64,000 nucleotides of DNA from the NCBI GenBank assembly GCA_030077755.1, contig JAQJZZ010000010.1, forward strand, positions 6,014,001 through 6,078,000, in the 5' to 3' direction. This document shows, piece by piece, positions 6,309 through 24,016 of the stretch. Under the pieces are notes generated by a model, which searched no databases, had not been told where the DNA came from, and was given only the letters and a program-made list of their open reading frames with translations. The translations under genes were made by a program, and so were the position numbers. The stretch is from Filosporella fistucella (lineage: Eukaryota; Ascomycota; Leotiomycetes; Helotiales). Each line of letters begins with the position of its first letter. Position 1 is the first letter of the stretch.

Positions 6309-7634
6309 TTATGCTGCTGCCTCCATCTTATCCAAGACAGCACGGGTGAATTGATGTGTGCTACTCTCTCCTCCCATATCTCTTGTTCGTACATGACTAA
6401 ATCCAATTAGCATAATTCCTGTTATTCTAAGACACAAGCATACCCCTCAGCGATGACATCGTAGACAGCCTTAGAAATGCGGTTAGCATGCTCATCAAGT
6501 CCAAGATGTCTCAGCAGCATGGATCCAGAAAGGATCATAGCAGTGGGATTAGCTTGATCCTTGCCCTTGATGTCAAGACCAACGTGACGACATCCAGGCT
6601 CGAAAACTGCTACATCACGACCCATGTTGCAACCTGGGACGATACCAGGTCCGCCAACCAGGGCAGCTCCGACATTGGAAAGAATTCCTCCATACAAGTT
6701 AGGCATAACCATCACATCGAATTGTTGTGGCCGCGAAACACATTGCATAGAAGCGTTATCCACAATCATGTCGTTTGTCTCTAGCGTGGGGAATTCCTTG
6801 GCAACAGCGTTGAAGGTATTTCGGAAGAGACCGTCTGCGAGCTTCATGATGTTTGCCTTGTGAATACAAGTGACCTTTTTGCGGTTGTTCGCCAACGCAA
6901 AACTGAATGCAAATTTGGCAATGCGCTCTGACTTGGCGCGAGTAATAATCTTCAAAGACTCAACAACGCCGGGTACAGATTGGTGCTCAAGGCCTGAGTA
7001 CTCTCCCTCTGTGTTCTCACGGATAATGCACAAATCGACATTATCGTGGCGTGTCTTGTAACCCGGAATGTTCTTAATGAGAACAATAGAAGCGTAGATG
7101 TCGAGCTCCTGTCTCATAGCAACGTTGAAAGATTGGTGGCCGGATCGCTCGATAGGTGTGTGCAGAATACCCTTCAACCCAAGCTTGTTTCTCTTCAATG
7201 AGGCAATTGATTCACGGAAAAGGTCCTCGGAGTGTTTGTTGCCAGTTTCCACACCTGAAACATCAACCTGCTCCCATTCGACTGGCACATTGTCTGCCTT
7301 GAAGATTGTCTTCACGGATTCTGCCACCTCTGCTCCAATTCCGTCACCAGGAATGAGAGTAACGGTATACTTTCCACCATATTTAGTTGGCTTGAAGATA
7401 TCGGATTGGACGGTCGCGAAGGAACGAAGAGTCTATAAAAACAAACATTAGCCTTTCTCTCTGCTGCAGAAGCTCAGACTCGTGGCTGGCATACTTGGGC
7501 GGATTGAACCGGACCTGAAGCAGTTCGCAGAAGGCTCTGATAAGAAGCTTGAGTTAGCTGTCGATTCGTGCCATTGAAGCTTGTGGGTGTGCGAATCATA
7601 CCTGCGCCGACCGAACAGAGCTACGCGACAGCAT
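6309..7634 (-). CDS. IDH1: isocitrate dehydrogenase [NAD] subunit 1, mitochondrial
   Basis: Four exons: complement(join(6309..6396,6444..7432,7495..7536,7602..7634)), 383 aa. Exons 1 and 2 (MLSRSSVRSAQ, then SLLRTASGPVQSAQ) form an Arg/Ser-rich mitochondrial targeting peptide. The mature part opens with YTVTLIPGDGIGAEV and contains RENTEGEYSG, NDMIVDNASMQ and the MPNLYGGILSN block of the isocitrate/isopropylmalate dehydrogenase family. The last exon, after a GTATGC...GCTAATTGGATTTAG intron, gives GHVRTRDMGGESSTHQFT, the expected C-terminus; without it the frame ends early at 6422. IDH1 is the regulatory partner of IDH2 in the NAD-dependent TCA-cycle enzyme of fungi. Confidence 0.96.
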
Positions 7635-9427: not shown

Positions 9428-10264
9428 ATGAAGCTCACTGCAACCATTTGCGCCTTGATCCTTGCGGCAACTGTCTCCGCCACTGCACTTCCTGATGCCA
9501 ACCCGAATGCTCGTTGTGGTTACCCGGGACAACCTTGTGGAAAGGCAAAGCGTGAGGCCAATGCTCTCGCTGATGCTCGATGCGGTTATCCTGGCCAACC
9601 ATGTGGTAAAGTCAAGAGAGCAGCTGAAGCCTTCGCTGCTGCCTTAGCTGAGCCAAATGTGAACAATTCCTCCTCTCTTTATTCTTCAGATGGCACTAAC
9701 ACAATACAGGCTCTTCCAGAAGACGCAATTCTTGACGCCAGATGTAACCTTGTTGGAGGTGCATGCTACGAAGCAAAGAGACTCACTCGTGATCTCGCAG
9801 ACGTCGTTGCCGAGACTCAAGAGGACCCAGCTGCATTTTGGGCCAGCCTTAACATCGAGACCGAAGAGACAACCGAGAAGCTCAAGCGTGAAGCAGAAGC
9901 CCGATGCGGTTATCCCGGACAACCCTGCGGCAAAGTCAAGCGTACCGCTGAACCTGAAGCTGATGCTAGATGTGGTTATCCCGGCCAACCTTGTGGAAAA
10001 GCCAAGCGTGAAGCTCGTTGCGGATACCCCGGACAGCCATGCGGAAAGGCCAGGAGAGAAGCAGACCCAGAGGCTGACGCTCGATGCGGCTATCCAGGAC
10101 AGCCATGTGGCAAGCTACGTCGTGCAGCTGAGGCCATCGCTGAAGCTGTTGCTGACGCTGAGCCATTTGCTCGATGCGGTTATCCAGGACAACCTTGTGG
10201 AAAAGCTCGCCGCGATGCCCACGCTTTGGCACACGCAGCTGACGTCGCACTTGCCTCATTGTAA
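9428..10264 (+). CDS. ppg1: alpha-type mating pheromone precursor, eight repeats
   Basis: Signal peptide MKLTATICALILAATVSATA, then eight units ending in dibasic sites. Seven are ARCGYPGQPCGK followed by xKR or xRR (first Cys at residues 30, 52, 160, 182, 198, 220 and 250, unspliced numbering). The third unit is degenerate (ARCNLVGGACYEAKR, Cys 106). KR/RR sites fit Kex2 cleavage, and the alternating Glu/Asp/Pro-Ala spacers fit STE13-type trimming. The CGxPGQPC core matches alpha-pheromones of Helotiales, where a Trp often precedes the Cys; here it is Arg. A 51-nt stretch at 9659-9709 (GTGAAC...CACTAACACAATACAG) looks like an intron. It is in frame without stops, giving 278 aa unspliced or 261 aa spliced. 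Secreted peptide for cell recognition by the partner mating type. Confidence 0.9.
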   Translation: MKLTATICALILAATVSATALPDANPNARCGYPGQPCGKAKREANALADARCGYPGQPCGKVKRAAEAFAAALAEPNVNNSSSLYSSDGTNTIQALPEDAILDARCNLVGGACYEAKRLTRDLADVVAETQEDPAAFWASLNIETEETTEKLKREAEARCGYPGQPCGKVKRTAEPEADARCGYPGQPCGKAKREARCGYPGQPCGKARREADPEADARCGYPGQPCGKLRRAAEAIAEAVADAEPFARCGYPGQPCGKARRDAHALAHAADVALASL

Positions 10265-11566
10265 GCGCCTCGATCTCGCTTTACAGTGATTACGGATTAA
10301 TTCATCTAATGCCCGGATTTCTCGCCATACTGTTCGGTTGAACTTCGTTTGCTTATGCATACTTTCCTTCTTCATCTCTTTCAACTCTGCTCCTCACACT
10401 TAATCAGGAGATTTTACTATGATGGCAGTCCACGAAACTGTCTGTTAGATCGTCTTGTCTAGATGGGCTTCATGCGCATGGGATAGGAAGGTCGGAATGG
10501 GCGCTTTGGTAATATGTATCTTAACTTCAATGTACTGTTGAAAGCCCACAATTGATTCCCCTTTGAGTGTGATGTCGAATCCTTGGCTCTGCTGCAGCGT
10601 GAGTTTCATTGAAAATAATAGTTGCCCGTCCGTTCTTCGGTAACTTTTTACTCGCTCACAGACTACTTGACCCAGAACTCCTTGCCTTCGAGGACTTCTT
10701 GACGGATTACTTTGCTCAACTGCTCGATGCTGCCATTGTAACACTCGCGGAGTCTGATCGGGATTTGAATCTTCTCTGATTTTTAACATCCAGTTTGCTA
10801 TTATGTTTATCCTAGCTACTCTACAACTTTCATCCCAGATCCAGTTATTAAGCTCCGAGAAGGAGGTAGCGGAAGTCTAGAGTCTTCTTGGACGACTCTC
10901 CAGAGCCATTCAACGTGCGTCGGGGCTTATACCATTGTATTATAAGTTATTGGTAGGTTTCCACATTCTCAATAGGAGATATTCAAGAATTTGATTTACA
11001 GCCACATAACTACTGCTCTCATATTCTTCAATATTATTGTAGGATAATTTTCGAGGCGGGCAAATGGTTCTTCCCCAGTTTTGCTGACAACGGTCCGGTA
11101 CCGTTCCGTACCCACATCGTTCCTGTTGCTTCCAGCCTAAGTGAATTTGAAATGACAACATCGCAGTTCCAAACCCCGAGTAAGTGACGAAAAGGTGCTT
11201 TCAAGGCGGAAATTTTCTGCAGATCACAGGTGATTAAGACTCATAGACTGTTATTATAGATGTATTTTTGTGCCATGACGTCCTTAGCTCAGACCTTTGG
11301 GGATGCCCTCGAGTCAATAATTGAGTGAGAGCTGTCAAGCCAAGTTCTCATTTCTGTTAGTAGTCACTTACATTATTGTAGAATACGAAATATTTCCCCA
11401 TACTCGTCTGGCCTAGAATTGAGATCGAAATATACCGGGGTTCTGTTCCCGGGAATACATCTCATGATCAATCTGACTTTCACATTACCATATCCCTACC
11501 TAGTGAGCGCCATTCAGCCTCCACTGCAGAGGAAAACTCTCCTAAGGGATAAAACCTCTAGCTCAC
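10265..11566. other. intergenic, no gene seen
   Basis: 1.3 kb between the pheromone gene and the end of the first histidine-phosphatase gene. Open frames at 10445 and 10940 (minus) lack starts, splice context or protein-like composition. One isolated CTCAATAG occurs near 10970. Nothing else supported. Confidence 0.4.
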
Positions 11567-13070
11567 TCAAGCTGCCACCCACTCAACCCACTCCCTCTTC
11601 CCCGCCACGTTCCTCCTTCTCGTCTCCGTCTCCTCCCAGCGCGTTTCTCCTCTTGCATCGGCCTCCTTTTTCCTCCTTTCCATCTGCCGATGTTCCCTCT
11701 TGGCCTCCTTCTCCGCAGTCCACTCCACAGTATCCTTCATCTTCTTCCATCTTCTATCCTCGTATCTCAGAGACCACACTTGTCTTGGGATGAGCGTGGG
11801 GACTTCCGAGTTTCCTGGATATGTTCTGTCGAAACTTTGGAACTTCTTAAGTCGGTGACATTCATCCCATTGTTGCCGAACATTGGCGTCGATAGGAATA
11901 AGATCTTCGGCACTAGCACCAGCTCGCCATATCTCCTGCTCTGTCGGATATCGATAGCTCTTCCATTCCGCATTGTGGAACCTGTCCGGCTTCTCAACTA
12001 TAATGAATTAATGACTTTCTTAACATGGAGCAGGAATGCATTATGCACTTACTTCCCAGTAAATCTCTCAGGAAAGATCCATGACTGACAACGGCGATCT
12101 CCACATCTGCTCCCTTGGCGCTTTTCAATGCAGCTTGTGAAAAGTCATAAAGCTTAAGGCGAACTACCTCAAGTCTGGAATTATCACAATGCCCTTCATC
12201 CTGATTCTTCTCCCAGTTATCTTTTAGAAGTCTGAAATCGTAAACTGGTTCGGTAGATTGTTTATTGGCGCGAACATGGCCAAATCGGAATCCAAGGTTT
12301 CGTTTGGATCTACCCTTAGAGGAAGGAGATTTCCCCCATTCTCTGAGGTCGGCATCAGCAATTATCTGGAGAAAGTTAGCAAACTATTCAAAGGGAAAGA
12401 CACTACGATTTTGGTTTTTCCAATGACTGAGAAGTGCTCATTACACAATGATAAAGGCGAAAAGGGATAAGTGTGAAGCTTACCGAGATTCCTTTTCCTT
12501 TGAGCACGGATCGAAATGCTCTATAGGCGGTGTCCAAAGTGCGATCCATTGGCGAGCAGAGAATATGGGTAATATTGGCCATTCTGGAGAAAGTCTTTTG
12601 TAGTAATTCTGCTTGAGCCACGCCCTTGCGTGTGAGTTTTGGATCCCGAATACGGAACCGGTCCTTGGGTCCTTCTCCTGGTCTCATAACGTTGTGCTCG
12701 GCCTACTTTATTAGACAATATCTTGGTCAAGACTGCTTCAAGTACTCACCTCGGCGTGGCGGATGAAATGAATTATCAGTTGCCCGGGGTTGAACTTCTT
12801 CCAACAACAACTCACTGTTTTATGGGGGAGAACTTCATCGGCATGTTTTTGCAAGACAGTCATCTCTGGGTTGACATCATATTGATCTTCATCGGTACTT
12901 TCATCCTCGGAAGTAGATTTGCGTCGTTTAGCTGTGGGCTCATTTGAGTCTTCGCTGTCGATGATCCAAAGTCGTCGTCGCTTCGAAGCGTCAGCACCAA
13001 GGAGCTGACCGTCGACGAGTCCAAAGTTGACTCCAGTTTGTTCGGAAGGAGTTCGAATAACTTTAACCAT
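11567..13070 (-). CDS. histidine phosphatase superfamily protein, array copy 1
   Basis: complement(join(11567..11997,12053..12365,12484..12702,12750..13070)), 427 aa. The catalytic motif IHFIRHAE ends exon 1 (His about residue 105) and continues AEHNV in exon 2. The second Arg sits in CSPMDRTLDTA and the second His in EIAVVSHGSFL. A FHNAEWKSY box follows, then a long Arg/Glu/Lys-rich tail (EKEAKREHRQMERRKKEAD) predicted to be coiled coil, not seen in the other copies. The N-terminus is disordered with basic RRR/KRRK runs. It is the phosphoglycerate-mutase-like fold; substrate unknown, since family members act on sugars, nucleotides or proteins. First of five same-strand paralogues. Confidence 0.85.
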
Positions 13071-13928
13071 TGTGATAGAGGGTATTACGGATCTTTATAT
13101 GGAATGAAGTACGATGAGGAAGTGAGTTATATAAATTTTCCAAGAGGGATTGCTTCAGTAGGCAACGACTGGAAAATATATGTTTGGTTGGGATAAACGA
13201 GGTTGAAATGTGTAATAGGCCTTGAAAGAATATGAGAGCATTATAGCATGAGTTATGATAAAGCGCAGGAAAATTCTGTTAGGTTGGGCAAATTATGGGG
13301 TGGGGACTTCCGGATAGTGGCCGTTACTGACGTCGAGTGCTATTCCCTCCTGCTAGTATGTATTTATATTTACTTTTGCACAGCTCTTACTGATGTATTT
13401 ACTCTCCTTCAAAAATGACCCGTTATATTGACATTTGTCCTTGTTGGGCCTTCAGGGTTCCATCGACGGTCCGCTAAGAAAATAGTTAGCCACCGGACTC
13501 ATGAGCCTACCCAAAAGAAGTATGGACTATATATATTGAGAACAATCTTCAGAGAGAGATATACAGTATGTGAGTAGGTGGTAATCATTGTAGAATTAGA
13601 AGCACTGATTATACCGGCTCGGAGGAGGGTCCAGATCAATCACGTGGATGACAAGATCGCCCCCTTTTCTGTTTCGCTACGCAATAATCCCTGCAGATTG
13701 GAAGATTCGCAGCAAATCGGACTGTCATATACGTGGGCACCTTTCACATAGACTATTAACACCTGGAAATCTCAGGTCTTTGATCGCAATGTCTTCTTCT
13801 CACACCATGTTGTCACGTGGGACAGCTGAAAAAGAGCCTGAAGTAAGAGGATATAGCATTTCCCTAATTTTACCCCCCTAATCTGTACAACACCAACCCG
13901 ATATTTGCAACGCTTGCGGCAAGTAGAA
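13071..13928. other. intergenic, upstream of copy 1
   Basis: About 860 bp. The open frame at 13648 (+) has no recognisable features. No remnant of a sixth phosphatase was seen. Confidence 0.4.
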
Positions 13929-15132
13929 TCAATTGGGTACGCAAGCCATAGCAGGGATAGGTGATCGTGTTGGCATGCTTCTACGGCGTCTTTCCTGACT
14001 CTCTTGGGTCTCGCTCAGCTCATATTTTGAACAACCATTGCTCTCGATAAACTCCGGGTCAGCAAATTCGAAGCTTCTGCACTCCATGTTCCGAAAGTTT
14101 CCAGCTACCAAACATATCAGCCAAATTTCGTACGTCTTGGCACATTTTCCTTACCAGCATTCTTCGTCAAGATGTTTAGAAAGCTTCCATGCGAAACAAT
14201 AGCGATTTCGACATCACCAAATGTCCATGACTCAGTCTCCTTCGCCCCCAAAATACCCTTTTCGACGTAACGCACTTTTAGATTGTATAGAGAATGTACC
14301 ACACGTTGTGTTCTCGATTCGCCATCCTTCTTTGGCACCTCCCATCCCTCCTCAACTCTCGAAAGATCAACCATATGTCCTTTCCCCTCCTTCTGAAGTG
14401 TGCATCTGATCTGTTCCAGCGAAGAACCAGTCGACGAAAGGCCAGTACCAGTCTCCCTGAGCGGTGGTAGTGCTTTAATCTTGAGATTTGTTCTCTTGAC
14501 TCGCAGTCTTGGACCAAATCCGATCAACGATGTCTGTAATGTCCGGCGCATAGGGGAGCAGTAGATAGTGCAAATATTTTCCAGATGACGAAACGATTTT
14601 GAAAAGTCTCTGGCTTGGTCTCTTCCTAATAGGGTGAGCGGCGGGTCTGTGATATTCCATCGATTCTCGTGGGGGATGTTGTGCGTAGCCTGAAAGATGT
14701 TAGAGAAGGTGTCGAGCGGATCAGTGGTCGTACCTGTGCATGACGAATAAAATGAAAGATCATTTTTCTCTTCCGGTATGGAAATTTGAGCTCCGAAACC
14801 TGATTACAAGAATCTGGAGGGGCAGAAAGTGCTTTTTCGACAATTTGATACAGCGCCCCAAAACCCATCACAATCTTATGCTGAATTCCAATAGCCTCAT
14901 CCTCGGACGAGGCAGCGTCAAGACACGCGCACAGTCCCTCGAGGCTTTCAATCACATTATGGATATTCCATACTGTAGGGAGAGATAATACTGAATTGTC
15001 GTTGGTGGGAATCGTTGGCTTTCTCATTAATGGAGCTTTGCAAATTCCAAATATCAGTTGATACAAAATTGAGCCTTCTACCAGCATGACACTGAGCTTG
15101 TCAGCCATTTGCGAGACACTCATGGGAGACAT
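13929..15132 (-). CDS. histidine phosphatase superfamily protein, array copy 2
   Basis: complement(join(13929..14104,14155..14689,14734..15132)), 369 aa. Exon 1 codes a 125-residue N-terminal region without known domain and ends in IFHFIRHAQ (His 131). The phase-0 intron then leads to ATHNIPHENRW. The PPLTLLG block, YCSPMRRTLQT (second Arg) and IAIVSHGSFL (second His) are all present, so the protein should be catalytically competent. The last phase-1 intron precedes NFRNMECRSFEFADPE. The C-terminal TQESQERRRR resembles that of copy 3 (TQESRKK), linking these two as closest relatives. Confidence 0.85.
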
Positions 15133-15553
15133 CGCTTGAGAATCATCGAGGTTGTTTAGAAAGACTCCTGTCCGATGGTTGTCTTTTGGAATGAAAGATT
15201 CGATGTTTGTTGAGGTGATGAATTCTTGCGTGGGAGTAGGTGGTACTTAGGTGCGTCAGATCGCGACTTTCAAGGCTTGAGTCAGATCGATGATGGCAGT
15301 GCTGCTTGGGGGCGGTGAATTAGAATCTTAGAGAGGGAAAGAAATGTGCAGCTGTCTATCCAGGTACAATTAAATTACGGGAGAATAATGGAAAGTGGAT
15401 TAAAGGCTTCGAGCACCCCGGATTTTATATCAGGCACGCTACACCTAGCCCTTCCGGTCACTTGAAAACCTTTAACTTTGTTGGGAATTTCACGGAATTA
15501 TTAGAATAAAACTAAAATTTTATGCTTCATGTATTTCTCTTTCTCTAATAGCA
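15133..15553. other. intergenic between array copies 2 and 3
   Basis: Promoter-like A/T-mixed sequence upstream of copy 2; no coding frame seen. Confidence 0.4.
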
Positions 15554-16864
15554 TTAACGTGGTGTGTATTTTCCCTCGTAAGAAATTCCCGATGGAAGAT
15601 GGGTGTAGCTCTTCTTCCGGCTCTCTTGCGTCTCGATCAAGTCGTACTTTGAATATCCGTAACTATCAATCAGCCTCTTAAATGCAAACTCAAAAGTCTT
15701 GTACTCTGCGTTCCAAAACCTCCTCTCCGTATAATAGTTAGCGTGTCTTCGAGCTGTGAATATTCTTTGCGTACCTGGACTAAGTCTGAGCAGCTTGGCC
15801 AGAAAATCTCCGTGTGAGACAATGACAACTCCAACATCAGCCTCTTCTCCACTTGAAGTATTGTCCTCGTTCACGACTCCACGCTCCAACATGTTGGTTT
15901 TTATCTTGTAAAGCTGCTCCCGGAAATGGCTTGCCCTGCTCATGTCGTTCAGCGGTTCCCTGTTGGCTTCCCATCCTTCAGATAAAGCGCTGAAATTGAC
16001 AAAATCTTGGATCTGCTCGCTCATGAGTTGCTGTAATAGGTTATTGACAGAGCTTCCTCTGGAGCTTGGTCCATAGCCTTCTGCTCGACACTCTGGGAAC
16101 GCATCGATCCGAATTTTCTTGAAATTATTACGAAGATGAGGCTTGAAAGCTATTAGGGCTGTATGCAAAGCTCGATTTAGTGGGGAAGCAAATATGATTT
16201 TAACCGTAGACATTGGTGGAAAGAATGCTCCTAGACGCGATGCCTGGCACATTCCTTTTGCGGTGAGTGGCGGATCAACGTAGCTGCCCCGATTAGAATC
16301 TGTAAACACATTGTGAATAGCCTATAGACAAAATCAGTCTGTGCTTCACCACATCCAGATTCCAGAAAATACCTCAGCGTTGCGTATGAAGTGAAAAAAC
16401 AGCCTCCTTGTAGATTTTGTGGTCGACAGAAGGGGCCGAATTTTTGGTAGAGCACTAGAAAACGTGGATGTATTGCTCGTCTTCACAATCCTGCCACTCT
16501 TATCCACATGTACACTACCCAATCCCGTACGTAAGGCGCTTCCGGGTCTTGCTGTTACGTGCTTTCGAAGATGGCTTCTTTTCTGGTGAAGTGTGACCGC
16601 TTGTCGAAGTTCGGCTGCCTCATAAAGTGAGTCTTTTGCAAATGATGTGAGTTGCTTCTCGGTGTCTGGAACAGGAGAAGGAGGTGCAGAGGAAGTTTGC
16701 TGATTTGACAAGAGAGCCCTCCTGGAAGCTTGATCGGGATCTTGAAGTGCAAGATTTCCAATTCTATCGGAAACTTCGTTGACTATGGATTCCAATTGCT
16801 CATCCTTTTCTGCTTCAGTATCTATCAGCTCCGAAGCATTCTTAGCCGATTTCTGTCCAGCCAT
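15554..16864 (-). CDS. histidine phosphatase-like protein with Asn for catalytic His, array copy 3
   Basis: complement(join(15554..16321,16373..16864)), 419 aa from the ATG at 16864; an in-frame ATG at 17038 would add 58 aa. The motif reads FFHFIRNAE: codon AAC (16379-16381) replaces the nucleophile His (about residue 162). The other motifs remain (PPLTAKG, FASPLNRALHTA, VIVSHGDFL), so a pseudoenzyme or scaffold is likely. The intron found before the NAE box in other copies is here a 50-nt intron-like stretch (15725-15774, GTACGC donor, GCTAAC branch) that cannot be removed without a frame break and is therefore read through, ahead of RRFWNAEYKTFEF. Confidence 0.8.
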
Positions 16865-17903
16865 AATTGTACTCTGAAGTAAAATAAGGTTGAGTTTCTT
16901 CGTAAAGTGCGTGTCGTTGATCTTGGGTGTTGGAAGAAATGCACGCGGGCTAGATTGGAGCAATAACCCCTTGGAGGCGCTGCGAACAGCAAAAACTCCA
17001 GCCTCGCTTCGATTAAAGTTGATTTCACCAGCCTTCAAGTCTTGCGTGTATCAATGTTCGGATATCTTCAATAAAGCATGCTGGCAAAATGGATAGCATG
17101 TCACTTCAATAGCCCAGAAGCAGCATTATCGATACACCTCGCAGTACTCTGTAATCAAGCTTCGAAAGACCTCCAAATCAGTCTCGATTCTCGAAATACA
17201 AAAAGTGCTGAAACAGGCATCGATTACAACTTACTTCTGCATGTTACCACTTGATGCGCTACAGCCGCCTAATTCTGTATAACTAGCAAGGCACCGGATC
17301 TTCGTATCTTTGTGTGATGTGACACGAGGATCAGGACACAAACAGCAAATTACAATCCAAAGATTTGAAGGGCTCCATCTGTTAGTTTCTTAATGAATCT
17401 CACCTCGACGAATTTTGTGCTTTCTTCTTATTGCTATATTTACAGGCAAAGGAGGCTCAATATCTGCTTAAATCCAGCTCACTCCATCTACACAACCATC
17501 AATAATCTACGAAAGGATTCCAGTACCCTTCAAGCTTCAAATAATGTTGAGATATTGCTATTCGATTCTACGATATGTCATGGCTGCAAGTAGTGTACCG
17601 GATGGCAGACGATAGGGACTAAACCCCCAGGTAAGAACACAAAACGGAAATTAGAATCTGCTTCACACGGAAATCCAATGGTAATTGCCCACCAATTCTT
17701 ATTAGCGAATCTAGAGCATATAATTCATGAATACCCTTCGGATTAGACAGAGATGCATAATCGTAAGGTGTTTCGAAGCCCCTGCCTGCCATTGGGTCAC
17801 AATAGCCCAGACTCTCCAAGCTCTTTTGGACACACCGTTCACTATGCTCATAAGTCTATACAGGACTTGTAGCTTTGAAATTAGTTTTAATGGCATTCTC
17901 TTA
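16865..17903. other. intergenic, upstream of copy 3
   Basis: Probable 5' UTR and promoter of copy 3 (an acceptor-like TTTTACTTCAG lies just before its ATG on the minus strand). Short open frames at 17393 (+) and 17619 (-) have no recognised similarity. Confidence 0.35.
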
Positions 17904-18389
17904 TCAATAATTTGTGTGACCCGATGTATCGTCTGTATCATTATGTCTTCCTCCCCTTTGCTCTACTCCTACTCCCTTGGCCTGATTGCCGTTGAAAACC
18001 GTACCTTCACCCGTTCTGTCAGTATTATCTCTGGTAATTGCCTCGATATGTACCAAAATCTTCGATATAGTCGGCATTTGGGAAGCGGGTAGGTAGGTGG
18101 TGAGGGCGGTCACAAATTCTGTGTTCGTATGAGACTTCACTGTCCTTCCACGACTGCCGGAGGCGGGCCTTAGCCGTTGTAGATTTGTGCTTGAATGTTG
18201 AGGAGGATGCTTTTGGTCGACCTAAGATATGTCAGAACCACTTCAATGTCGAGAAAAGTGCATGCATGCCCTGCTGTTCGAGTACAGTTAGAACACGACT
18301 TCTGATGTTAGGTATCCTTTGATGCAAACGAACCAAGACAAATTGGGAGCAAAGATTGGAGATCGAACCTGAAGGATTTGGAAGTTCAT
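17904..18389 (-). CDS. possible small two-exon protein, unknown
   Basis: Speculative: complement(join(17904..18221,18369..18389)), 112 aa. A seven-codon first exon MNFQILQ, donor GTTCGA and an acceptor preceded by TCTGACATATCTTAG join in frame to a 106-codon open frame that is hydrophilic and Thr/Asn/Gly-rich. It could equally be chance; nothing resembles a known family, nor the phosphatases on either side. Confidence 0.2.
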
Positions 18390-19171
18390 GGCTGCCACGT
18401 TCGTTTTTTTGTGGGCTCGAAGATATGGGTCAAATTTCCGGTTTCAAAATCCGCGAGTCTGTTTTTCAGGAGGAGAGCCTAAGTACTCCACGCCACTGTT
18501 GTCAACAACTTGTCTCTGACTAATAGCGATAAGATGAAGGGGGAAAAGGAGTACGTTGAGTGTGATTGCAATTCTCCGTTCCTGCGCTGATAGATAGGCG
18601 TTCTATGATCTGTAGATCTCCAGGACGGAGCAGGCTGTCGGGACTGGCAGAAGGTTGGCGTTTCAGTTCAAGTTAGCACAGAGATAGGTGACAACGGAGG
18701 ACGCCAGATTTCCAAGAGAGCTGATTGATGGATAGACGACGTATACAACTTGTTTTACATACGGCAGACCGGAGGAAAACTACATGGGCAAGCATCAAAC
18801 GCCTCAACCCAATTACAAGTGTTATGAAACTCGTGGATGCATACTATTAATCATTTTCTGATAGAGAAATCTGTGCTCCTACCAGTTGAACAGAAAAGGA
18901 CAGTGCAAGTAGAGACATCCTGATTTCCCAAATTACAAGAACTGCGCAATACCAAGAGAACCTCTAAGAATTACACGGTAATCCAGTATCACGGCTGTGG
19001 TACTTGAGCTCCGGAAATAGTACCCTGTGCTTTGATCCTTCTGAATGACTCAAGAACTTTAACATCATGTCTGAAAAAGATCCCCTCTTAGAAACTCGCA
19101 GTGTATCTGTATCTACTGCCTTCGCCTATGATATATCGCCCAGTGGACCTTCAGCTCGGTGTACAACCTGT
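18390..19171. other. intergenic between array copies 3 and 4
   Basis: No supported coding frame; a short open frame at 19067 (+) is antisense to the end of copy 4. Confidence 0.35.
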
Positions 19172-20495
19172 TTACAAATCCTCGGCGGGTGGTCCCCAAG
19201 GATGTCTGTCGTGTATAATCGGAAGTATGTACTTTCCATCACCGAATTCGTATGACTTATATTCCGCATTGTAGAAATTGCATTCTAGCAAGAACTATGG
19301 TCAGCACTACCATTTCATTGAGAGGAGCCGAAAACTTACTCCCGTCAATAACCGAACCCAGAAATGCCGCATGTGACACTATCGCAATGTCTACATGTTT
19401 CAACGGGTCAAATTTGGCATTGTACTTTGCTCCTCCTCTTGTAGGTGTAAATGTGACATCTCTGTTCTCAAACTCCAAGCAGATGCTATGAAGAAACTCC
19501 CTCACTCGTAACGTTCGTGCCATATCACCACGTGTCTCTCTATTTTCCTCCCAACCCTGATGAACCAAAGACAAATCCACAAGATTTCGCTTTCCTGCTT
19601 TCTCTAGCTCTTTCTCAATGACTTCAACGGGTGATCCAGTTGAAGCATTTCCATTCCCAAATTCACGGAAGTCGGGGAGAGCTATCATGTTGATACCATT
19701 CATGCCAGTCTGGGGATCTGGTACAAGGCGTTTCTCGAAGGCTATGAGTGCAGTTTGAAGTGTTCGACGCATGGGAGAGCAAAGGATGAGGGATATGTCG
19801 TTCATGAACTCGAATCGGTCTCGGAGGCAGGCTGCTTGGCGTTCGCCCATAGGGGTAAGCGGAGGATCTTTTACTAACGTGTAAACGCCCTTTCTGACAT
19901 TGTGAGTTGCCTGTAGAGTCAGTGATATTCAGACAAGAAGCACACTAGATAAATAGAATTCAATGAATGTTACCTCGGCATGGCGAATGAAGTGTACCCT
20001 GAAGCATTTGCGATTCATCCTCAACTTGACGGGGGGTAATGGACGGTGAGCAATTCCAGGTCCGAAAGTACTTGGAACAAGCTTTCCTTCTTCGTTGCCT
20101 GAATCATTCTTGACTTTGGAGTTCTCCTGCGAGAGTTTTTTACATTGATCGTGATACGTCTTCAATGAGTCTAACGACTTCATACACTCATGCCAACCCT
20201 TGAATGCTATTTCGATCTCATCATGTCTGCCCTCGCAAATCTTGCAGGAAACCTTGAGCTGCTTCAATGAAGACACAAGATCGGATGTGATGTCAGATAT
20301 CTTGTTTTCGGAAGAAGAGGATTCGGTTTGCTCTAAGAAGCATTGGCAACTGGGGTTGCCGTTGGGGTATTTAATTTGAACTAATCGAGTGAGAAACGCA
20401 CTCGTCGCGAGCGGTACGTTATGAGTTACTGTCTTGTTGAGTTCATCGAGAGCCTCAGAGGACAAGGGTTCAGGAGCAGGATATTTTTCATCCAT
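19172..20495 (-). CDS. histidine phosphatase superfamily protein, array copy 4
   Basis: complement(join(19172..19284,19340..19910,19974..20495)), 401 aa. Exon 1 codes about 165 residues including a Cys-containing coiled stretch (KVSCKICEGRHDEIEIAF) and ends in FRVHFIRHAE (His 172). Exon 2 carries ATHNVRKG, KDPPLTPMGERQA, LCSPMRRTLQTA and IAIVSHAAFLG. The last phase-1 intron leads to NFYNAEYKSYEF and a short tail ending PAEDL. Catalytic residues are all present. Without the last intron the frame ends early at 19257. Confidence 0.85.
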
Positions 20496-20903
20496 GGTTG
20501 AGGCTGACGATAAGTGAGAGGTTTGAGAAGATGTTGGTGGCGTAACGTTGGCGGATGAAGATAGGTGTTCGTCGGAAGAGGGGATGATGGAGCACGATAT
20601 ATTAGTTTTGACGATATCGTTTACGAACTAACCCAGAAGATTTGGGGCTAGGCTTCTATTGCCTGACGCAGTTTTGTTTCGAGACAATACTAGCTTGCGT
20701 TCTGTTAAAATTCCTTTTCCGTCCAAAGTGCCGCAAATCGACTGAAAACAAGTCGATAGAGTAGGACGAGTTAGATAGGGCACGTCATTTACAAGTTACC
20801 CCGAAAGGTTCTGAATCGATCGTCCATGGCGTACGCGTCTCTGTTTCTTTACGAAAGCCTTGTTCTAGTGATACTTACCAGAGTCCTCCACTCAAATCAT
20901 CGT
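20496..20903. other. intergenic between array copies 4 and 5
   Basis: Upstream region of copy 4; no coding frame seen. Confidence 0.35.
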
Positions 20904-22391
20904 TTACTTACTTTGCTGAGCCACAAGAATGGTGTATTCGACAATCCTATCAATATCCTCTTGTGCCCATCCCCATTCCTTCATATACTTCAGTCTCAAT
21001 CTAGCTACCTTCTCTGCGCTTACTCTAGACTCCAACTTCGCCATTCCGGAATATGGTATACCGGAGCCTTCTTTGGTGCAGAACTCGAAGCTTACGCATT
21101 GTGCACTATGGAATTTGACAGAACATCGATATTAGCGTACTGATTCAAACAAAATCAGAAGCTAGGAAACTTACCCTTCTCTTCTCCAAGAACTTGCATC
21201 AGTGTGTTTTGATGTCCCACAACCAAGATTTCCACATTTCCATTCTTATTTAACTGCCCACGTTCGTTACCCGTCTGGCTCATCTCCCAAAGCATCTTTC
21301 TGATATCTTCTCCAACAATGTCTCTCGGAACCCAGTTATCTTCCCATCCTTGTGGTAAATTGCTATAGTCTATATTAACACCGGTCCGCTCGAAGACCTT
21401 GCTGATAGTATTGATATCCCTGCCAGTATTGCATGGGATTCTGCCCATCTCCCTCAGATTCGATCGTAGGACTATTGGGATGCCAGAAGCTAGGAGGGGC
21501 CGGAACGAGAATTTGTTGGTAATTTCGATAGTTCGGGTAGAGGGAGAGGAGACGACGTGGGTTTTGTTGTTCATGTGCTCGAAGCCTTTGCAAAGTCTTG
21601 CACAATGGTAGAGCCCTTTGCTGATGAGGTGGGGGTCAAGGATTCTTTTCAACTGTTCGACCGGGTACTCCCGGAATAGACTGTGGTAACCCTATCAAGA
21701 ACAATCAGTATTATCATCTTAGTGTTGAATGTAAATATACTAGAGTCTCAAGTCGCTCTGAGAGAGCAATATCAGATTGGCCCGGGTAGCATTATTCAGC
21801 GAGCTGTGAGAAATACACCGGCTGTAAAAATTAGGAAGATTTTGTTTAGACAGATGCTGGCAAATACAATCATCACTATTCAAATATGATTGAAAATCGA
21901 TTGTAGCCACTACGAAGAACTAGCCGAAAATGGTGTCAATGTTGAATAAGATTCGACTACTTTGTTCAGCTATACAAAGCACCCCAGAACAACCAGATCT
22001 AGAAAGAAAAACAGGAAAGTTTGCTCTGCCAGGAGTGTAGAGCGACTGCCAAACATACATAAGCTGATCAGGGGGATATGGCGCTGTGTTCTCCAAAAGT
22101 CTCAGAGAAGAGCAAGACATGGATAACGACGACCCAATGTCCTGCGACAAACTGGCCGAGCAAGAGCAGAACAAGAGCCGCACGTGTAAGGAACGACTAA
22201 GTCATCGGCGAAAGCAGTTGTGGTACTAAACGACTGAAACTAAACCGAAAGATCGAACCTACCTCAGCGTGCCTAACCAGGTGGATTGTTACCGTTGGCT
22301 GGGATTTTGGTGGAGCAGCAGCGGGAGGATCAGCAGATTCCTCTGCTGGGACAAAGCCAAAGCAGACACCGAGTGTGCAGATGAAAGACAT
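20904..22391 (-). CDS. histidine phosphatase superfamily protein with broken last exon, array copy 5
   Basis: Exon 1 22263..22391 is short (MSFICTLGVCFGFVPAEE..., ending VTIHLVRHAE, His 41) and lacks the long N-terminus of the other copies. A 571-nt intron leads to exon 2 at 21175..21691 (GYHSL, SSPSTRTIE, LVVGHQNTL). The phase-1 intron 21106..21174 ends in exon 3 with VHNA then TAA at 21092-21094, giving 219 aa. One frame away the same DNA continues CVSFEFCTKEGSG to a stop at 20904, the expected tail, so a small deletion has broken it. Removing 67 nt from GTAAGC (just after VHNA's GC) to a CTAG would restore frame but drops the SFEF box. Truncated gene or recent pseudogene. Confidence 0.6.
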
Positions 22392-23010
22392 TTTGTTTTT
22401 ATTTATTTGGCAATATTTTGTGGGAGAATTTATTGTGAGGTAAGAGTTCGAGGCTGTGAAAGGTGCTACGATATCTATGAATTCTAGGAATTCGACCATA
22501 AGGAGGAGCATCTACACGAATTCGCTCTCCTCATCGTAGCCGCATGATTATATGACGACGATAAAATTCGAACTGCAGGTTATAGCCGAGCATACTGGAA
22601 GTTACTTTAATTTTAATCATGTTGTGTATTTGCTATATGTATTCAGAGATTGGTAGCCACTGTGGCGAGGGAAGTGGTTCTTTATAGAAACAAGGTAGGA
22701 CCAGGTAAGGACAATGCCTGTGTAATTAACAGGTAGATCTGTTTGCTAAGCACAGTGCTTGCTGTTGCCCACAAACATGTTGCAGAAATTGTGCTTGCAA
22801 CGAGAAATTATTACATGCAGAGCTGCTGGAGAAAGCTTTGTGGAGCCAAGACAACAAAAAACACATTAAAAGAAGCAAGGATTGCACAGTAACTATCGTG
22901 CAAAAACCCTCAGCTTGAGGAAAATTGTTCAGAGAATCATAATCACGCTTCATTTCAAGCCCTAAATGAAGCAGCAAAGCTGGTGTTGATACAGGGTGTC
23001 ACATACACGT
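22392..23010. other. intergenic between array copy 5 and proteasome gene
   Basis: No supported gene; the 83-aa frame at 22726 (minus) is Leu/Cys-rich without context and overlaps the likely proteasome 3' UTR. Confidence 0.4.
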
Positions 23011-24016
23011 CTATTCCTCCATCTTATCATCCTCCGCTGCCTTGTCATCATCCTTTGTCTCCTCGTCATCGTCATCGCCCTCTAAATGCTTCTTCGCAAG
23101 CTTTTCTGCCTCCTCTAACAACTCCTTTGGAACCTCTTGATGTCTGCCCTTGGTAGGACCTTCTAGATTGCTGATCCAGGTCATCTCCAACTCAAATTCC
23201 TTGTCCTTGTTGTCGGCATGAGCGACATAGATAATTCTCGCAGCCTCCTTGACACCATCCAAAAGACTTAATTTTCCAGCAGCCAGGTCCAACTTTTCTA
23301 GCTCAGCCTTGGCGGTTTGTCGTCCCTTGCCAGTGGCAGCTCCATAGTATCCCCAGTACAATCCGCTTGGTTCGATCATGTAAAGACCTGGACCTCCATA
23401 CTTTTTCCCTTCAACCTTCCCACCCGAACCAATTGTAGGTCCACTCCCTACTTGTCCATCAACTGGTAACTCGAGCTCAGAATCCCAGCCTCCAACGATT
23501 GCGGTGACACCAAATGGTCTCACGGAAGAGTATAGGGTGTATGCTTGGAGATAGCCACCCATTCTGCTGGCGAGATCTGCGGTTGTGATTGGAGTCTTGT
23601 ATACTTTTCGCCAGCTTGCTGCTTCATCGCGTGCGCGGGAGGCAAAGTGTCTGCCGTCTGGTACTAATCCTGACGAGACCTGAATAATTAGCCACGATCA
23701 TATTTCGCATGAAAAGAGCTTCACTTACTGCACCCATGTGTCTATCGATTGTTGCAATACGCTTGTTTGCTCCGGGCTTCAACAGCTTGCTTGTGATGAC
23801 CTTTTCAACTGCAAGCACCACACCATCCTTGCACCTAATTCCAATGGATGTGCCTCCATTCTCTACTGCCTTGACTGCATATTCGACCTGAAAGTTTCGT
23901 CCATCTGGGGAGAAGACGGAGTTTGTAAGATCGTATCCTGTACCTATTGAAGTCTAGGGAGGTCAGAGCTGCACAGAAGGCTGAATGGCAATATTTCTGG
24001 TTCTGAAGCTTACCAT
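23011..24016 (-). CDS. PRE10: 20S proteasome alpha subunit (alpha-7/PSMA3-type, PRE10)
   Basis: complement(join(23011..23679,23729..23953,24014..24016)), 298 aa. The start ATG is an exon by itself: GTAAGC follows it at once, and the next exon begins [19 protein letters not shown], the alpha-subunit N-terminal signature, then [32 protein letters not shown] and the MGGYLQAYT segment identify the alpha type 3/PRE10 group. The C-terminus is a long acidic tail ([14 protein letters not shown]), typical of this subunit. Structural ring subunit of the 20S core; not catalytic. Both introns are short with good branch sites. Confidence 0.95.

Follow-up and report, generated by a model that had tools for sequence, protein, structure and literature searches.

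What kind of locus is the run of five histidine-phosphatase genes on contig JAQJZZ010000010.1 of Filosporella fistucella, how did its members arise, and do all of them still encode enzymes? The window analysed is the whole stretch of 64,000 nucleotides (contig positions 6014001-6078000) from a 45.8 Mb genome in 19 contigs, and coordinates below are window positions. Five paralogous genes, HP1-HP5 (copies 1-5), lie next to one another on the minus strand at 11567-22391, spanning 10.8 kb. The explanation we favour, and regard as likely, is that an ancestral gene with an intron after its RHAE motif duplicated in place, that the duplicates diverged until the catalytic domain alone could be aligned, and that part of this duplication is older than the split from Sclerotiniaceae. 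The array would thus represent a diverged subfamily, marked by R-E-x-G at the acid site, of ordinary fungal branch-1 histidine phosphatases. Copies 1, 2, 4 and 5, which keep the phosphohistidine residues, would act as intracellular metabolite phosphatases, and copy 3, having lost the nucleophile histidine and the acid glutamate, would be catalytically dead and either decaying or becoming a pseudoenzyme.

The gene models were built by hand and then verified by translation, and splicing throughout is read from the DNA sequence. The five genes are listed below with the motifs that they keep.

13070-11567, minus strand: HP1 (copy 1), 427 amino acids; exons 13070-12750, 12702-12484, 12365-12053 and 11997-11567; RHAE, SPMDRT, REWG and VSHG kept, with a charged C-terminal tail (translation, alignment and tail composition).
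15132-13929, minus strand: HP2 (copy 2), 369 amino acids; exons 15132-14734, 14689-14155 and 14104-13929; RHAQ, SPMRRT, RETG and VSHG kept (alignment).
16864-15554, minus strand: HP3 (copy 3), 419 amino acids; exons 16864-16373 and 16321-15554; RNAE; predicted inactive.
20495-19172, minus strand: HP4 (copy 4), 401 amino acids; exons 20495-19974, 19910-19340 and 19284-19172; RHAE, SPMRRT, REFG and VSHA kept (alignment).
22391-21092 (to 20904 with the other splice site), minus strand: HP5 (copy 5), 219 amino acids with the strong second donor; exons 22391-22263, 21691-21175 and 21105-21092; RHAE, SPSTRT, REMG and VGHQ kept (model and alignment).

A codon score trained on the other genes of the window peaks in the annotated frame in all five genes, with some margins small. 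The stretch ahead of R[HN]A[EQ] comprises 103 residues in HP1, 129 in HP2, 160 in HP3, 170 in HP4 and 39 in HP5, and the final 82 residues of HP1 are 48% K/R/E/D. The PF00300 domain is found above its cut-off on exon 2 of HP2 (E-value 2.9e-10), HP3 (2.6e-9), HP4 (4.9e-12) and HP5 (1.4e-5); exon 2 of HP1 passed it in the genome scan with 29.3 bits (cut-off 21.7), and the exon 3 region, the single HP1 piece given to Pfam, returned no match. Branch-1 histidine phosphatases use a catalytic set of an R-H motif, a second arginine, an acid and a second histidine, and work by phosphohistidine chemistry. In the alignment these catalytic residues are present in HP1, HP2, HP4 and HP5, and HP3 is without the first histidine and the acid.

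Comparison with solved structures points to the same fold class. A profile built from ten domains picked out branch-1 phosphatases of solved structure, 50 distinct sequences at E <= 0.01, with YKR043C, TIGAR and the Sts proteins among them. The structure model of HP3 exon 2 has 36 structure matches at E <= 0.001, including Sts-2 (3d4i), YKR043C (3f3k), tau55 (2yn0), Huf and TIGAR (3e9c), so that the predicted fold is that of the histidine phosphatases, with branch-1 members as its best matches. Identity over those 36 matches is 13-23%, and no substrate can be transferred from the solved structures; nor is one named from NCBIfam, because no model there comes near its cut-off (all matches lie far below it, and HP5 has none). 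Judged by their residues, HP1, HP2, HP4 and HP5 would most likely act inside the cell, dephosphorylating small phosphorylated metabolites. An intracellular location is proposed for HP1-HP4 because no signal peptide is apparent in them by eye.

The introns tie the five genes together. In 5/5 array genes intron 1 is a GT-AG intron in phase 0, immediately 3' of the R[HN]A[EQ] codons.

12703-12749, minus strand: shared intron 1 of HP1, 47 nt, phase 0.
14690-14733, minus strand: shared intron 1 of HP2, 44 nt, phase 0.
16322-16372, minus strand: shared intron 1 of HP3, 51 nt, phase 0.
19911-19973, minus strand: shared intron 1 of HP4, 63 nt, phase 0.
21692-22262, minus strand: shared intron 1 of HP5, 571 nt, phase 0.

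Three dispersed relatives in the same genome, C12, C10 and C4a, carry one open frame running uninterrupted across the same place; in a fourth, C4b, any intron near the motif would sit further downstream, as judged by eye. Since place and phase agree in all five copies and C12, C10 and C4a are uninterrupted, the array genes would descend from a spliced common ancestor, and the shared intron together with the tandem order argues that this ancestor duplicated in place. A second intron is also shared: in phase 1 ahead of N-A-E-Y-x-S-[FY], it occurs in HP2, in HP4 and, as the third intron, in HP1; HP5 has an ambiguous donor for it, and in HP3 no attempted removal preserves the frame. All assigned introns are GT-AG. 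A YTRAY branch-like site lies 12-20 nt before the 3' end in nine of the ten, a count made without a chance control; in the tenth, intron 2 of HP5, such a site lies at -30. A preliminary description of this DNA had proposed five minus-strand paralogues at 11567-22391, with long N-termini in copies 1-4 and a short one in copy 5, a phase-0 intron right after the motif in every copy, and descent from one spliced ancestor. The gene models and PF00300 domains bear out the first of these, the 103-170 residues before the motif against 39 agree with the second, and the intron data confirm the third in the DNA sequence and lend support to the fourth.

The same description had assigned RHA(E/Q) and SP..RT to all copies, which is correct for HP1, HP2, HP4 and HP5 and fails for HP3, where the model and alignment give RNAE for RHAE and SP..RA for SP..RT; the loss of two catalytic residues in this copy had been overlooked. 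The positions concerned are as follows.

16379-16381, minus strand: HP3 codon AAC (asparagine), at the place of the nucleophile histidine in the other array genes (sequence, model and alignment).
16082-16084, minus strand: HP3 codon GCA (alanine), where 9 of 10 aligned domains have glutamate (alignment column E93).
15725-15774, minus strand: intron-2 place of HP3, 50 nt, with donor GTACGC, CTAAC and AG, read through in frame.

With the nucleophile histidine and the acid glutamate gone, HP3 should be unable to use the phosphohistidine mechanism and is predicted to be inactive. For each copy, a column was taken as near-invariant if at least 9 of the remaining ten rows agree. HP3 keeps 25/31 such columns, losing H, T (beside the second arginine), E, D, I and S; the corresponding counts are 28/29 in HP1, 28/30 in HP2, 28/28 in HP4 and 24/31 in HP5. 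HP3 is thus distinguished by where its losses fall, two of them being catalytic, and not by their number, as HP5 loses no fewer. Both motif arginines and the second histidine are retained. Removal of 50, 52 or 55 nt at the intron-2 place, the three acceptors tried for the GTACGC donor, breaks the frame, and in the structure model of exon 2 (mean predicted local distance difference test score, pLDDT, 78.9) values below 50 occur at residues 182-198, which correspond to this place.

HP3 is either at an early stage of decay or has become a pseudoenzyme with a non-enzymatic role. The chances are about even that it is merely decaying, its catalytic residues and a splice site lost under relaxed selection with the frame still open: two catalytic residues are gone, none of the three removals splices the intron-2 place in frame, and the HP3 query found zero homologues at E <= 0.001 among 5311 candidates. 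Against decay, 419 codons are still open, the codon score is highest in HP3's own frame (0.083), and the near-invariant columns kept, fewer than in HP1, HP2 and HP4, are similar in number to those of HP5. It is rather unlikely that HP3 serves as a functional pseudophosphatase, still able to bind the family's ligand or one of its sibling proteins and acting as a regulator of the active copies. The retained arginines and second histidine would suit such a role, and entries 3oi7 and 3ll4, by their titles, have a His-to-Ala mutant of YKR043C holding sugar bisphosphates, so that ligand binding by this fold does not depend on the nucleophile; however, no orthologue with RNAE was found in the HP3 search at that threshold, and the damaged intron-2 place suggests relaxed constraint. 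That the HP3 changes are assembly errors is highly improbable: each differs by one base (AAC for the histidine codon CAC, GCA for GAA), but two independent substitution errors would be needed, both in catalytic codons of one gene, and the remainder of the frame is open.

HP5 has features of its own. Its first exon is 129 nt and its intron 1, at 571 nt, is about ten times as long as the 44-63 nt of the other copies; the DNA of this intron has no second match in the genome. With the strong donor of intron 2 the protein ends in HNA*, and a second donor allows an alternative end.

20904-21105, minus strand: alternative last exon of HP5, used with the weak donor 21170 (GTTTCC), four bases downstream of the strong one.

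The weak donor gives GNAQCVSFEF, with a 62-codon open frame from SFEF onward, and this frame is coding-like (score 0.128, the two remaining frames scoring -0.03 and 0.026). The resulting tail appears to fit the family pattern better than the HNA* end.

Searches of the genome with HP1, HP3, HP4 and HP5 (HP2 was not among the queries) each recovered, apart from the array itself, one weak match and four dispersed relatives, which were the same for every query. Given so few other matches in 45.8 Mb, the similarity within the array is not due to chance. All four dispersed relatives, C12, C10, C4a and C4b, carry Q-E-x-S and not R-E-x-G at the acid site; the PF00300 scan of the genome gave 20 matches, four of them in the array, and its other places were left out of the alignment and of the R-E-x-G check. 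C4b (L024 1899-2760, minus strand; contig C4 near 1886900) has an in-frame TAG shortly past RHAE, which could come from a short intron or from damage to the gene.

Among 5.8 billion proteins, searched by a method that reaches only relatives sharing exact short words, HP4 had two matches at E <= 0.001, Monilinia laxa EYC80_004437 (P0001) and Monilinia fructigena DID88_010036 (P0002), both with about 37% identity over 53% of HP4; HP3 had none. Because relatives are so few, array-type genes may lose detectable homology fast. A profile of the five copies and the two Monilinia proteins retrieved 20 proteins. By eye, R-E-x-G stands at the acid site of P0001, P0003, P0004 and P0015, and Q-E-x-S at that of P0005-P0014, P0016, P0017 and P0020; P0018 has Q-E-A-T, the P0002 model is without the acid-motif stretch, and the site in P0019 is ambiguous. 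The Q-E-x-S proteins, which are phosphoglycerate mutase-like and include C12, C10, C4a and P0005-P0011, share PF00300, R-H-[AG]-x, SP..R[TA] and V-[ST]-H with the array and differ from it at the acid site, and C12, C10 and C4a differ further in having neither the intron after the motif nor a long N-terminus.

Two trees were built. Tree 1 has 22 rows, namely HP1-HP5, C12, C10, C4a and 14 of the 20 proteins (P0002, P0009, P0012, P0013, P0017 and P0020 left out); tree 2 has 19 rows, with P0019, P0018 and C4a dropped for long or uncertain branches and HP5 represented with its alternative tail. C4b is in neither. The split between R-E-x-G and Q-E-x-S sequences has support of 98/98 in tree 1, where the R-E-x-G side comprises ten rows with P0019, and of 100/98 in tree 2; on these alignments the R-E-x-G subfamily is real. 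Within it, P0001 of Monilinia laxa, itself an R-E-x-G protein, groups with HP1-HP4 (96/96 in tree 1, 82/92 in tree 2), and HP5 pairs weakly with P0004 of Botryotinia globosa (68/37 and 81/54). Part of the duplication is therefore probably older than the split from Sclerotiniaceae, as read from trees whose inner support is weak.

The preliminary description had instead taken the genes for a lineage-specific family. In its strict form, a founder would have duplicated solely within the lineage of this fungus and all five copies would have diverged fast after the Monilinia/Botrytis split, which we hold to be improbable on present evidence. The intron shared by 5/5 copies and the presence of Q-E-x-S, not R-E-x-G, in all four dispersed relatives found would fit it, as would a clade of HP1-HP4 only, which is not rejected by the approximately unbiased test (p-AU 0.304 in tree 1, 0.385 in tree 2). 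However, a clade of exactly HP1-HP5 is marginally rejected (p-AU 0.049 in tree 1, 0.043 in tree 2), P0001 falls inside the HP1-HP4 group and HP5 joins P0004, so the claim is not supported as made. In tree 2 a clade of HP1-HP5 with P0001 has p-AU 0.175, and one with P0003 as well has 0.376; since neither the HP1-HP4 clade nor HP1-HP5 with P0001 is rejected, the duplication may be private to the lineage in part.

Several observations weigh against the partly ancient, in-place duplication that we prefer, beginning with that marginal rejection of the five copies as a clade. Most inner branches of the trees are weak and the terminal branches are very long; the tree program itself cautions that joins of this kind may be false. 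The best score of HP5 is to C10, outside the array, and not to its neighbours. P0003, which belongs to the subfamily and comes from a contig of 1418 bases, genomic or RNA-derived, reads RHAEADHN unbroken, so the intron after the motif may not be general in the subfamily. The N-termini of HP1-HP4, P0001 and P0003 have no similarity to one another in 15/15 pairs (top z 0.88). Finally, the HP3 exon-2 model is without the first strand, and its TM-scores, normalised by query length, are just 0.38-0.53.

Domain identity among array pairs is 26-40%, and synonymous differences amount to 0.74-0.86 per site in 10/10 pairs. The ratio of nonsynonymous to synonymous substitution rates (dN/dS) is not measurable because synonymous sites are saturated: the corrected synonymous value is infinite in nine pairs and 3.59 in HP4-HP5, and no ratio is given. 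The changing selection that the preliminary description had suggested is therefore beyond the reach of dN/dS on these sequences. A common N-terminal domain was considered and rejected on the 15 dissimilar pairs and on four N-terminal exons that gave no Pfam match above cut-off; the last exon of HP1 likewise gave none. The fold model of the first exon of HP4 has a mean pLDDT of 38.7 and is unusable. The same exon (19974-20495) has a weak DASH_Dad2 match (E 0.024, 15.5 bits vs a cut-off of 26.9), probably just a helical region.

An origin of the array through a transposon or a repeat was also rejected: the DNA of 16900-19150, the only intergenic DNA searched against the genome, and that of HP5 intron 1 match only themselves genome-wide, and 10400-23700 contains no direct or inverted repeat of at least 40 bases. 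The interval 16900-19150, about 2.2 kb between HP3 and HP4, holds no recognisable gene and gave no Pfam match in the two frames examined.

The surroundings of the array bear on the position of the fungus. To the left lie an isocitrate-dehydrogenase-family gene (6422-7432) and a likely alpha-factor-type pheromone precursor (9428-10264, plus strand), which begins with a hydrophobic stretch and contains the repeat ARCGYPGQPCG seven times and a diverged form, ARCNLVGGACY, once, each repeat ahead of KR or RR; to the right lies a proteasome subunit gene (23011-23953). RCGYPGQPCG is reported from five species of 14 Ploettnerulaceae, Drepanopezizaceae and Mollisiaceae, and WCGRPGQPC in 31/36 Sclerotiniaceae (PMC10569646). 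On the strength of its repeats the fungus would stand near Ploettnerulaceae, Drepanopezizaceae and Mollisiaceae, which would place Monilinia and Botryotinia in a different family.

Tandem histidine phosphatases that have specialised are already known, and what is new here is the R-E-x-G subfamily, its cluster with a shared intron, and the dead member; a literature search in which few subscription journals were covered found no description of the array or of the subfamily. PMU1 belongs to branch 1. In Candida glabrata, CgPMU1-3 are tandem histidine-phosphatase paralogues, two of them specialised in substrate and regulation; CgPMU2 and CgPMU3, 81% identical, became phosphate- and thiamine-regulated phosphatases (PMC6027888). 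That family resembles the array as a tandem set of histidine phosphatases in an ascomycete genome, but the domain identity of 26-40% in the array compares with 81% between CgPMU2 and CgPMU3, and the shared intron, the long unrelated N-termini and the catalytically dead member are unlike CgPMU, the comparison being with the published description only.

A more elaborate reading, which we consider doubtful, treats the array as a set of enzymes and a pseudoenzyme in which HP3 is a ligand-binding regulator of the active genes beside it, the unrelated N-termini give each copy its own place or partner, and R-E-x-G is a helotialean invention under fast, diversifying evolution. If ordinary, the locus would be another example of birth and death within a family of fungal genes. 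With four copies that are probably active, a catalytically dead one and a shared intron, it would allow the birth and divergence of phosphatase genes, and their death or re-use, to be traced in one place.

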